DNA from: Epilithonimonas bovis DSM 19482
GTDB taxonomy: Bacteria > Bacteroidota > Bacteroidia > Flavobacteriales > Weeksellaceae
Direction of reading: 5' to 3'
Assembly (NCBI RefSeq): GCF_900108115.1
Contig: NZ_FTPU01000001.1
Coordinates: 62,001 to 126,000 of the forward strand
Length of the DNA: 64,000 nt
Shown in pieces: positions 52,798 through 56,317 of this stretch. A program made the translations under genes and the position numbers. Every line of letters begins with the position of its first letter. Position 1 is the stretch's first letter. The notes under the pieces were generated by a model. It saw nothing but the letters and a program-made list of their open reading frames with translations, had not been told where the DNA came from and did no database searches.

Positions 52798-53796
52798 TTA
52801 TTCTACTATTACTTTTGCTTTTTTCTTTTTATCAGAAGACGGTTTGGAAGAGGTTTCCTTTTTCTTTTCCGTAGATTTTTTTGGCGGAGACTTCTTTTCT
52901 GTTGTTTTTGGCTTTGTAGATTCCTTTTTCACGTCCGCTTTTTTCGCTTCTTTCTTCGGTTCCGGTGTTGCTTCCGTTTTTACCGGTGTTGCCGCCAGCA
53001 GTTGCACGGGTTTCTCCTCCGTTTTTACAATTTCGATCTTTGGTGCATTGCGGAGCATGCTGTCATTATCTTTGAAATAAGGATTCAGCGTGGTAACAAT
53101 CTGATTGTTATATTTTACCGAAACCTTTTTGTACTTCTGCGGATTCTGGTAAACCAGGTATTTTTCTACAAAGGTCTTGAATCCCTGTACCTTAAAATCA
53201 ATATTTTCCAGATCTCCCAATTCTACTTTGAAATGCCCGTCGCTGGTCAAAAGGTTGTAGCCTCCTTTTTCTTTCTTAATCCCGATGAAATATTTTTTGC
53301 AAAAGTCATCTTTATCGATTTTCTCAATCAACCGCCCCAGTTCCTGATATTCCGAAGCTTCAACATCACCCATTACCAGCATGCACGGATAAGAGAAATT
53401 CTTCGAGATTGGAAATTCTACACCTTTCTCATCCACATAAAAATCTTTCCCTTTTTTGCTCAATCTGAAAACCGGCACACGCTGTTTGATATCAATATTA
53501 AGGTTTCCATTGAGGTTCATAAAAACATTAGCACTGTCTACAAATGGATTTTCGTTTATTTTCGTCTCCAGTTCCGGGATTTTCACATCCCCGATTTTCT
53601 TGGTTGGGTTGTATTGCTTCACCAGATCCTTGATGTCTTTTTCATCAATGAAGTAAACCGGTGTTTTGCCCTGGTTCATATTGATAGACACGTTCTCCAT
53701 CCTGGCGTTGTTGAAACGCTTCAACGAGAAACTGAGCAGAAACCCAAAAAGGATGACTGTTACGAGTATCTTCAATATTCTCCACTTGTTTTTCAT
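52798..53796 (-). CDS. ftsQ: Cell division protein FtsQ/DivIB
   Basis: A bitopic division protein of 332 residues: one N-terminal membrane helix (ILKILVTVILFGFLLSF), a POTRA domain (residues 35-110) and the beta domain. The last 60 residues are an unusually basic Lys/Glu/Pro/Ser-rich tail, probably disordered. Its ATG abuts copy A of the repeat that brackets the GxxExxY nuclease gene. Confidence 0.93.
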   Translation of the reverse strand: MKNKWRILKILVTVILFGFLLSFSLKRFNNARMENVSINMNQGKTPVYFIDEKDIKDLVKQYNPTKKIGDVKIPELETKINENPFVDSANVFMNLNGNLNIDIKQRVPVFRLSKKGKDFYVDEKGVEFPISKNFSYPCMLVMGDVEASEYQELGRLIEKIDKDDFCKKYFIGIKKEKGGYNLLTSDGHFKVELGDLENIDFKVQGFKTFVEKYLVYQNPQKYKKVSVKYNNQIVTTLNPYFKDNDSMLRNAPKIEIVKTEEKPVQLLAATPVKTEATPEPKKEAKKADVKKESTKPKTTEKKSPPKKSTEKKKETSSKPSSDKKKKAKVIVE

Positions 53797-53804
53797 TACT
53801 TTTA

Positions 53805-53880
53805 TTTTTAACGCAACGGACGCTAAGATTTTTTTACATTAATGCTGGTTATTCTCGTTTGCAAAGGCGCTTTGCTCAGC
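53805..53880. repeat. Repeat copy A of the GxxExxY unit
   Basis: A 76-nt repeat starting tttttaacgcaacggacgct and ending gctcagc. Copy B (54273-54347) matches it with about 10 mismatches and one gap (roughly 86% by hand). Copy C is inverted and more diverged. Copy A lies just upstream of the ftsQ start codon. Confidence 0.9.
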
Positions 53881-53886
53881 TAATAT

Positions 53887-54264
53887 TTATAACTTATTTA
53901 CAACTCTCTTTACTCCATTTTTGAATAATGCTGAATGGAAGTTTAAAATCATTCCTAACCTTAATTCTGTTAATCTCAAATAATTTAATATCTGGAAAAA
54001 ATGATAATCATTAATTTCTGGAACTGCTTTTATTTCTATAATTAATTTGTTTTCAATTAGTAAATCAACTCTAAATGCTTTTTCTATTATCAAATTTTCA
54101 TACTTAATTTTAATATCTTTTTGTCTTTCGACAATCAATCCTCTTTCTTTTAGTTCGTAAGCCAAACATTCTTCATAAACATTTTCGTAAAGACCAACTC
54201 CAAGCTTGCGATGAATTTTCATTCCTACATCAAATACAATACTTGAAATTTCATTTTCTGTCAT
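53887..54264 (-). CDS. GxxExxY protein (PD-(D/E)XK nuclease fold)
   Basis: A 125-residue protein of the GxxExxY family. The name motif is at residues 24-30 (GLYENVY). The nuclease core residues fit Asp 67 in FRVDLLIENKLIIEIKAV with Glu 77 and Lys 79 as the E-x-K pair. Such proteins are predicted PD-(D/E)XK nucleases; I know of no proven target. It lies between murC and ftsQ on the same strand and is flanked by repeats A and B (direct) and C (inverted). The gene is absent from usual dcw clusters, so it is an insertion. Confidence 0.88.
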   Translation of the reverse strand: MTENEISSIVFDVGMKIHRKLGVGLYENVYEECLAYELKERGLIVERQKDIKIKYENLIIEKAFRVDLLIENKLIIEIKAVPEINDYHFFQILNYLRLTELRLGMILNFHSALFKNGVKRVVNKL

Positions 54265-54272
54265 TATTACTT

Positions 54273-54347
54273 TTTTTAACGCAACGGACGCTTAGGGTTT
54301 TTACATCATTACTGGATATTTTCGTTCGCAAAGGCGCATTGCTCAGC
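54273..54347. repeat. Repeat copy B of the GxxExxY unit
   Basis: A 75-nt direct copy of repeat A. It starts nine bases upstream of the GxxExxY start codon, as copy A lies nine bases upstream of the ftsQ start, so the unit reads repeat plus gene. Confidence 0.9.
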
Positions 54348-54438
54348 AAATGATTCCCTGTTTTATAATTCGATATGTCTTTTTATTAATTATTAAAAGT
54401 TTAAATAATCTAATTTCAATTTTTTTCAATTTTCACTT

Positions 54439-54512
54439 GCTGAGTGAAACGCCTCTGCGTTCTATAAATATTTTCAATATTTATAAATTTTTCTTGCGAA
54501 CCTAGCGTTAAA
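54439..54512. repeat. Inverted repeat copy C with hairpin, next to murC
   Basis: Begins gctgagtgaaacgcctctgc and ends cctagcgttaaaa, matching the inverse of copies A and B at both ends. Inside is a perfect 10-bp hairpin, tataaatatt (54463-54472) with aatatttata (54476-54485). It touches the murC stop codon. Confidence 0.8.
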
Positions 54513-54513
54513 A

Positions 54514-55872
54514 CTAAACACTCGGCAGCCATTCCATAATCGGGTCGTACAATGTATCGATGTTTCCGGCGCCTACCGTTAATACAATGTCAAAATCTTT
54601 TTCTTTTATCTTTTCGAAAGCCTGTTGCAATGTGCAGACTTCTTTATTTTCGAGATTAATTTTCTCTGCCAACCAAGCGGATGTAATGCCCGGAAAATTC
54701 TCCTGAAGTTCTCTTGCAGGGTAAATATCCAATAACAGCAGTTCATCTGCTTTTTCTAAACTTCTGGCAAAATCCTCAGCAAAATCCCTTGTTCTGCTGA
54801 ACAAATGCGGCTGGAAAACAACCAACAGCTTCTTGTTCGGGTAAAATGTTTTTACCGATCCGATAACGGCATTCAGTTCCGTAGGATGGTGCGCATAATC
54901 ATCGATATAGATTTTCCCGTTATCGAAAAAATGCTTTGTATATCTTCTCTTAATGCCCTTGAAACTGGCAATTCCCTTTTTCAGAGTATCGAAATCAACT
55001 CCCAGATTGCTTAGGATTGCCAGCGCTACCGTTGCATTCTCCACATTATGGATCCCCGGGATTTCCCAGACAAAATCATCAACTTCCTGTGTGGGCGTAT
55101 GAAAGTCAAAATAGATTTTATCGTGATCCATCCTAAGATTATCGGAATAATAATTTGCTTCTTCATTCACTGCATAAGTTCTGTGCTCTCTTCCTATCGC
55201 AATCCCTTTTCTTACAAATAAGTGGTTATCAACAGGAACCAAAGCCGCAAACTGGCGGAAACCTTCTTCTATATGCAACCTGTCTCCGTAAATATCCAAA
55301 TGGTCGGCATCAATAGAAGTTACAACTGCCCAATCCGGCGAAAGATTGAGGAAACTTCTGTCATATTCATCCGCTTCTACCACAGAATACTGATTGCCAT
55401 TGTAATCAAAATTAGATTTGAAATTCTCCGAAATCCCACCTAAAAATGCAGACGAAGGAAGATTAGCTTCTTTGCACAGATGCGCTATCAAAGTTGAAGT
55501 TGTGGTTTTCCCGTGCGTTCCTGCAACAGCGATACAATCTGTATGTTCTGTGATGAGGCCAAGGACTTTAGCTCGTTTCAGGATTTCAAAACTTTCGCTG
55601 GCGAAGTAATCCAGGATTCCTAATTTTTTGATGGCCGGCGTATAAATCACCAATGTTGACTCTTTGTCCAGTGCCACAATTTTTTCATCAATGACATCTT
55701 CAAACGAAATATCAAGACCTTCAAAACCAAGCTGGGCTGTCAGTTTTGTAGGTGTCCTGTCATATCCCAAAACATTTTTGCCATTGGCGTGAAAATATCT
55801 CGCCAGCGCACTCATCCCAATCCCGCCGATTCCGACGAAGTAGAAGTTTTGATATTTATTTAAGATGCTCAT
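54514..55872 (-). CDS. murC: UDP-N-acetylmuramate--L-alanine ligase
   Basis: MurC adds L-Ala to UDP-MurNAc. The 452 residues carry the N-terminal GIGGIGMSALARYF Rossmann loop, the P-loop AGTHGKTTTSTLIAHL, EADEYDRSFLNLSP and the DYAHHPTELNAV motif. It is flanked on both sides by nuclease units: GIY-YIG upstream and GxxExxY downstream. Both lie outside its coding sequence. Confidence 0.96.
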   Translation of the reverse strand: MSILNKYQNFYFVGIGGIGMSALARYFHANGKNVLGYDRTPTKLTAQLGFEGLDISFEDVIDEKIVALDKESTLVIYTPAIKKLGILDYFASESFEILKRAKVLGLITEHTDCIAVAGTHGKTTTSTLIAHLCKEANLPSSAFLGGISENFKSNFDYNGNQYSVVEADEYDRSFLNLSPDWAVVTSIDADHLDIYGDRLHIEEGFRQFAALVPVDNHLFVRKGIAIGREHRTYAVNEEANYYSDNLRMDHDKIYFDFHTPTQEVDDFVWEIPGIHNVENATVALAILSNLGVDFDTLKKGIASFKGIKRRYTKHFFDNGKIYIDDYAHHPTELNAVIGSVKTFYPNKKLLVVFQPHLFSRTRDFAEDFARSLEKADELLLLDIYPARELQENFPGITSAWLAEKINLENKEVCTLQQAFEKIKEKDFDIVLTVGAGNIDTLYDPIMEWLPSV

Positions 55873-55943
55873 TTTCTTTATTGTATAAATCCTTTCTCAA
55901 GTTCAGGATAACATTTCTAATACTAAATTTTAATCTGGACGTT

Positions 55944-55970
55944 GTCAGGCTGAGCTTGTCGAAGCCCTTC
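55944..55970. repeat. Left terminal inverted repeat of the GIY-YIG unit
   Basis: A 27-nt sequence starting gtcaggctgagcttgtcgaa. Its inverse matches 56269-56294 with one mismatch and one extra base. The GIY-YIG stop codon overlaps its inner end. Confidence 0.92.
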
Positions 55971-56262
55971 AATCTTTCATTTCATTTTTTGATAATCCTG
56001 GCAACAAATCCCATTTATCATTAATGATTGCTTCTTTCTTTTTTCTACTCCATCCTTTCACTTGTTTTTCAAAATCAATTGCTTGATTAATATCATTAAA
56101 CTCATAATGAAAAACTAATTCTACTGGTCTTCTCTTATATGTATAACTTTCTGGATTTAATCCGTCATTATGCTCATTAATTCTACTTTCCAAGTCATTA
56201 GTAACTCCTGTATAATAGGAATTGTCCGAACATTTTACAATATATACATAGTATAATTTCAT
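55969..56262 (-). CDS. GIY-YIG nuclease-family protein
   Basis: A 97-residue stand-alone GIY-YIG domain: YVYIVKCSDNSYYTGV at residues 5-20 holds the two Tyr motifs, Arg 27 lies in ESRINEH, and the C-terminal half has FEKQVKGWSRKKKEAI, typical of the small YhbQ/UPF0213-like group. The core is complete, so activity on DNA is plausible. It lies between murG and murC, exactly filling the space between two 26-27-nt inverted repeats. It is absent from standard dcw clusters. Confidence 0.9.
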   Translation of the reverse strand: MKLYYVYIVKCSDNSYYTGVTNDLESRINEHNDGLNPESYTYKRRPVELVFHYEFNDINQAIDFEKQVKGWSRKKKEAIINDKWDLLPGLSKNEMKD

Positions 56263-56268
56263 TATTAC

Positions 56269-56294
56269 GAAGGCTTCGACAGGCTCAGCCTGAC
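56269..56294. repeat. Right terminal inverted repeat of the GIY-YIG unit
   Basis: A 26-nt sequence starting gaaggcttcgacaggctcag, the inverse partner of 55944-55970. It begins seven bases upstream of the GIY-YIG ATG. Confidence 0.92.
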
Positions 56295-56317
56295 ACCGCT
56301 CTACTTATTTTTCACTT

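Follow-up and report, generated by a model that had tools for sequence, protein, structure and literature searches.

The 717-nt gap between murC and ftsQ in a 3.35-Mb Epilithonimonas genome raises the question of what a small GxxExxY nuclease gene, bracketed by repeats, is doing in the dcw cluster. We addressed this in a 64,000-nucleotide stretch of Epilithonimonas bovis DSM 19482 (contig NZ_FTPU01000001.1, positions 62,001 to 126,000), referred to here as the window. The gap extends from 53797 to 54513, with the ftsQ start at 53796 (minus strand) and the murC stop at 54514 (minus strand), and the unit, previously described as running from the murC stop to the ftsQ start, coincides with it exactly. 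The GxxExxY gene is on the same strand as both of its neighbours, and the features of the unit are as follows.

53797-54513, minus strand: whole element, filling the murC-ftsQ gap
53803-53884, minus strand: repeat A, the right end, with an inner box at about 53860-53884 (end-model match E = 6.7e-19)
53812-53818 and 53821-53827: words of repeat A, CGCAACG and CGCTAAG, 9 bp apart
53887-54264, minus strand: GxxExxY gene (PF13366/TIGR04256), encoding a 125-aa single-domain PD-(D/E)XK nuclease (Cas4/RecB-like)
54270-54351, minus strand: repeat B, an extra right end upstream of the gene, 85% identical to A
54280-54286 and 54289-54295: words of repeat B, CGCAACG and CGCTTAG, 9 bp apart
54439-54513, minus strand: repeat C, the left end, inverted relative to A and B and abutting the murC stop codon; assigned from orthologous left ends

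Repeats A (model match at G000:C80:115805-115881) and B are direct copies at a spacing of 467-468, and the approximately 86% identity given for them in the preliminary description is closely reproduced, at 85% over 54 nt and 80% over 49 nt; local alignment over the whole repeat length scores 99, compared with a maximum of 22 among 500 shuffles. The proposed inverted copy C is near chance level in the window alone (A-C scores 20 versus a shuffle maximum of 26, and B-C 23 versus 22), but a similar left end is plain in the orthologues of G017, G018, G004, and G013 and in Chryseobacterium (orthologue left-end scores are 29.5 for L018 and 16 for L016), and for this reason we count C as real despite its weak score. 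With A and B of the right-end type and C of the left-end type, B is an extra right end; read along transcription, C comes first, followed by B, the gene, and A. Repeat B is absent from G017, G018, G004, and G013; in G013, right ends instead follow the gene in a tandem series at murC-ftsQ. The C-B-gene-A order recurs in a Chryseobacterium murC-ftsQ gap (L188) and between ftsQ and ftsA in E. caeni (L131).

The protein matches PF13366 with an E value of 8.8e-39 (132.9 bits; curated cut-off 22) and TIGR04256 with an E value of 3.8e-39 (133.7 bits; curated cut-off 35). Its PD-(D/E)XK core, earlier suggested to comprise Asp 67, Glu 77, and Lys 79, is well supported, with D67, E77, and K79 being invariant across 40 diverse family members, as are G24, E27, Y30, Q91, and Y95 (numbering +1). 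The AlphaFold2 model is a confident single domain (pLDDT 94.4), and its nearest solved fold is that of SSO0001 (Foldseek E = 6.4e-4; Z 9.4, rmsd 3.6 over 100 residues), which we take to be a Cas4 protein; Z values of 7-8 are reached by other PD-(D/E)XK folds, and a sequence search for solved-structure relatives of the nuclease returned none. The D, ExK, and QxxxY residues are shared with Cas4/RecB-family nucleases, the QxxxY pattern being typical of the RecB/Cas4 branch, and the PADLOC Cas4 profile gives a weak match (E = 3.2e-4). Unlike Cas4, however, the protein is a single 125-aa domain lacking a four-cysteine cluster, and the unit contains no cas genes. It has a single cysteine (C34), with no cysteine invariant across the family alignment, and because four cysteines are required for the iron-sulfur cluster, it is not a Cas4 protein of that type. 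With a 125-aa core and no additional DNA-binding domain, the nuclease may perhaps need a host partner. Transposases of the DDE, HUH, serine, or tyrosine type are absent, and PDDEXK_3 is the only family that the unit's sole gene matches. At murC-ftsQ the nuclease gene is under purifying selection (median dN/dS about 0.11), and its mean synonymous difference (0.50) is lower than those of ftsA (0.61), murC (0.68), and ftsQ (0.70), which could result either from same-site spread between species or from composition only.

The association of gene and repeats is not peculiar to this locus. GxxExxY genes are present in 61 of 103 sampled Bacteroidota genera, and in a set of 81 genes from Epilithonimonas together with a few further families in the same order, the inverted repeat between upstream and downstream flanks beats 99% of shuffles for 66; phylum-wide, the inverted ends do so at 49 of 70 genes. 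The end sequences vary by element, and include AACGCAA..CGCAAAG, CACAAAAG, CACATAG, CACAGAG, CACGGAG, CGCAGAT, CATATAAG, and others, with the two ends of each element being matched to one another: across 89 elements the own-pair end score is 18.1, compared with 9.9 for permuted partners (SD 0.23, maximum 10.9, 5000 permutations), and the own partner end ranks first in 44 to 46 of the 89. A directly repeated 7-mer (at least 6/7 matching at 8-11 bp) occurs in 73% of strong arms versus 12% of shuffles. Word spacing agrees between both ends in 35 of 41 cases, which is not independent evidence because the arms were picked through their alignment. Gene and ends thus belong together as one unit whose ends are specific to the element, and the 7-bp words, spaced at about a helical turn and inverted between ends, look like protein-binding DNA sites. 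One gene between two flanking repeats is only part of the picture: the ends are arrays of short words, and most end copies have no adjacent gene.

Ends are indeed abundant beyond this locus, as had been anticipated. The window genome has 13 blast matches to the repeats and at least 53 end-model matches, and counting of copies with and without an adjacent GxxExxY gene gives at least 23 to 77 ends in each Epilithonimonas genome, compared with 0 to 8 GxxExxY genes; these counts are lower bounds, as 150 of thousands of candidate ends were scored per genome. Among the 30 best end loci, 29 lack a nearby nuclease gene. Genome G014 has no GxxExxY matches and at least 38 end matches, showing that ends persist in the absence of the gene. 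Of 36 single ends, 32 have their outer edge pointing toward the start of a gene, often within 25 nt, and such ends may have been left behind, or kept, as a harmless leader of the next gene. Full elements also have a preferred setting: both neighbours are co-directional with the nuclease gene in 54 of 67 phylum-wide elements, and nearly always in Epilithonimonas. We note two tandem arrays, one of about 18 AACGC-type ends repeating every 97 bp or so, in which no nuclease gene was seen (L360:820-2595; G013:C1, about 53.8-55.6 kb), and one of closely similar units of about 360-625 bp with one AACGC-type end each (G000:C60:116814-117873; L129).

Comparison with relatives shows that empty sites exist, as do several intermediate states. 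The 22 Epilithonimonas murC-ftsQ gaps contain the gene in 5, a short spacer in 8, and an unrelated small ORF in 9, and beyond these, G002 has a nuclease gene of one lineage (lineage F, below) beside ftsQ at a contig end; about one-quarter of 80 named Weeksellaceae murC-ftsQ loci carry the gene. At this site a scar consisting of a 30-nt left end is present in L162, L163, L175, and L178, left and right ends flank no gene in L154, and the genes of L161 and L192 are internally deleted. The ftsQ-ftsA gap is an empty 20 nt in L143, has a lone right end in eight loci, an element without its gene in L136, and full elements in L131 and L138. Full, deleted, and empty states occur at the bshA gap, where in four species an TCTCGCAGAT mini-element is nested within an CACAAAAG element, and full, gene-less, and empty states occur at the flavin-reductase gap, where the left end of gene-less elements provides the last codons and stop of the upstream gene (PAI* becomes PAILPQ*). 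No target sequence common to the empty gaps is evident among the murC-ftsQ and bshA/flavin-reductase gaps compared. Likewise, no target-site duplication was identified at the ftsQ-ftsA and flavin-reductase junctions, and because the flanks are AT-rich, neither a duplication nor an exact junction is definable.

Other inserts occupy the same gaps. Nuclease-free murC-ftsQ gaps (L046-L049, L054, L055, L058-L060) contain an unrelated small ORF, secreted- or lipoprotein-like, and bshA and flavin-reductase gaps without the nuclease often hold such an ORF too, as though operon gaps of this sort tolerated inserts of many types. Short murC-ftsQ gaps (L132, L140, L149, L148, L166, and others) are built from further repeat families such as TTAATACATTTTACATTAATAC and TACATTGTACTTT, and the ftsQ-ftsA gaps of L133, L135, and L141 have one or two copies of another family, AAAAAGTCCCATCGGGACGACAAATAT..GGATAGGGTTTCAACCCTATC.

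The nuclease protein tree clusters by site, with 17 label changes compared with the least possible 14 and a shuffled mean of 69; this near site-specificity indicates that elements are mostly inherited in place and that movement is rare. The closest GxxExxY paralogue within the window genome is 56% identical, and no near-identical recent copies were seen inside one genome. With the mostly vertical inheritance and rare moves seen in the tree, the element in Epilithonimonas is not an actively hopping transposon. Distinct nuclease lineages nonetheless share one gap at murC-ftsQ, at fecD-fecE, and at sufB-sufC, and lineage F (L023, L043, L136, L075) is present at both ftsQ-ftsA and murC-ftsQ, retaining its own ends, TTGAACACnAAGCGCACnAAG. 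Scored on trimmed arms, lineage F ends match between sites at 21.4, compared with 8.0 between different lineages within one site and a shuffle mean of 6.8. A second case (fecDE/thiolase) has the same direction and is weak (11.6 versus 9.9); arms reaching the neighbouring genes gave a misleading same-site signal for fecDE. In one clear case, then, the end type evidently follows its nuclease lineage to another site. A phage or plasmid gene was also considered, and is rejected from the finding of 0 matches among 50,697 phage records, GxxExxY genes in 7 of 72,556 plasmid records, and one IMG/VR contig.

A second gap in the window has a similar arrangement. On the other side of murC, the murG-murC gap (55943-56296) contains a nuclease gene of another type inside its own inverted repeats, CTTCGACARGCTCAGCCTGACA.

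55969-56262, minus strand: GIY-YIG nuclease gene (PF01541, E = 5e-18)

In another copy (L283) both ends are changed together, GAGCGGAGTCGAAG ... CTTCGACTCCGCTC, and a second, unrelated nuclease family therefore has the same pattern. We also note a G+C-rich contig of a viral collection (L280:1920-2430) with a GxxExxY gene flanked by a matched pair of ends, CACCACAATGGTCACAAAGAGCAC / CTTTGTGTTCTTTGTGGTG; the pattern is thus possibly not confined to Bacteroidota.

We consider it reasonably probable that we are dealing with a compact, selfish mobile element, with two inverted word-array ends around a gene for a minimal Cas4/RecB-like PD-(D/E)XK nuclease, and we weighed this against other explanations. 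One is that such units act at the RNA level, as 23S rRNA intervening sequences (IVSs) do, with the ends pairing in the polycistronic mRNA and RNase III cutting the stem, thereby removing the nuclease segment or separating the murC and ftsQ messages. The sense orientation of the elements between operon genes is as expected of this, the window unit has a more stable predicted fold than its shuffles (z = -3.2), in which the left and right ends pair, and the Coxiella IVS, a selfish element carrying an ORF, is excised by RNase III (PMC4990558). However, mismatches between arms have no excess of changes that are G-U-compatible on the sense strand (80 versus 91); RNA pairing thus does not explain end matching, and with the G-U and A-C mismatch counts unbiased, we reject it as the main cause. 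Single unpaired ends are abundant, and the direct word repeats within an end have the helical spacing that protein-DNA sites would show. An Rfam search of the unit returned nothing at E values up to 1, on which basis a known structured RNA is rejected, and we regard this explanation overall as unlikely. We give equally little weight to the explanation that the ends are REP-like or MITE-like sequences moved by an unrelated transposase, with the GxxExxY gene as captured cargo. It would account for ends far outnumbering genes, forming tandem arrays, and persisting where the gene is absent (G014); it does not sit well with one protein family having element-specific matched ends across about 60 genera, with an end type that tracks the nuclease lineage in one clear case, or with the lack of any other transposase gene seen in the units.

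The preliminary description had raised both a homing and a transposon-like module, and it is partly supported: the transposon-like part stands, in that ends and nuclease behave as one unit and that both observations set to refute it (no empty site in related strains, repeats confined to this locus) turned out otherwise, whereas homing is improbable. A homing-like process, in which the nuclease cuts a relative's element-free gap and is copied in by repair guided by the flanking genes, the end repeats being mere by-products, would fit the patchy and nearly site-specific lineages, and also the lower synonymous difference in the nuclease gene than in murC, ftsQ, and ftsA, although this may reflect composition. 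It does not predict matched inverted word-repeat ends, gene-less mini-elements, or nested insertions, and the empty gaps have no evident common target, making this explanation improbable. That the gene is a domesticated regulatory or defence gene with the repeats as its operators is scarcely credible: purifying selection, the Cas4-like fold with its weak PADLOC match, and the frequent placement of ends directly before start codons are compatible with it, but frequent loss and decay, gene-less and multi-site copies, neighbours belonging to the dcw cluster rather than to defence genes, and the rarity on plasmids and absence from phage records argue against it.

The mobile-element reading places the unit near several known systems without equating it to any of them. 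REP/RAYT systems, which include REPtrons and TIRtrons (PMC3733652), similarly place repeats on either side of an endonuclease gene, have numerous free intergenic copies of those ends, and have end families that differ between genomes; however, the nuclease here is of the PD-(D/E)XK type rather than an HUH tyrosine (Y1) transposase, and the ends are 7-bp word arrays rather than GTAG-tagged palindromes. The 23S rRNA IVS with its S23 ORF (PMC4990558) is likewise a short, selfish, patchily distributed unit with paired ends and one small ORF, vertical after acquisition, but the present unit is in an operon gap (murC-ftsQ) rather than in rRNA, encodes a PDDEXK_3 nuclease rather than the S23 four-helix protein, and lacks a signal of selection for RNA pairing. 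With MITEs and small insertion sequences it shares element-specific terminal inverted repeats, autonomous-looking and gene-less forms, nested copies, and empty sites; unlike them, it has no DDE or HUH transposase and no target duplication found, and its ends diverge fast but in step. The open-access papers searched, by repeat sequence and by topic, contain no description of such units, and those that mention GxxExxY concern other matters, although absence from open-access papers does not in itself establish novelty.

If the unit is such an element, the ends are probably the DNA sites of its own Cas4/RecB-like nuclease. The nuclease would bind its end words and cut at or near the ends, and this cut would start transfer or copying of the element through host repair. 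New copies would survive chiefly between co-directional genes and in the transcribed orientation, where they would do little harm, and would be inherited long-term until deletion removes them, in many cases with one right end remaining immediately before the following gene. The copy in the window would then be an old resident of the murC-ftsQ gap in which one right end has been duplicated.

The gene-plus-repeats unit is widespread in Bacteroidota and has the appearance of a small mobile element of a class not yet described. A further and more tentative reading, which we think possible although less than even in probability, is that autonomous mobile elements of a new class are defined by GxxExxY nucleases and present in about half of sampled Bacteroidota genomes, in which the free-standing Cas4-like nuclease is the sole encoded protein and the words at both ends co-diverge with each other and with it, constituting a natural code between nuclease and word. 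GxxExxY proteins are encoded in a large share of Bacteroidota genomes and have no known function, and their flanking repeats fill gaps in essential operons. How a lone Cas4-like nuclease might move DNA without a known integrase is a question that this reading would raise. If the nuclease reads its own words, every lineage would provide a nuclease naturally paired with its site, and the variety of word types would amount to a recognition code; and if the reading as a whole is true, a large class of flavobacterial repeats would be the ends and leftovers of one element family.
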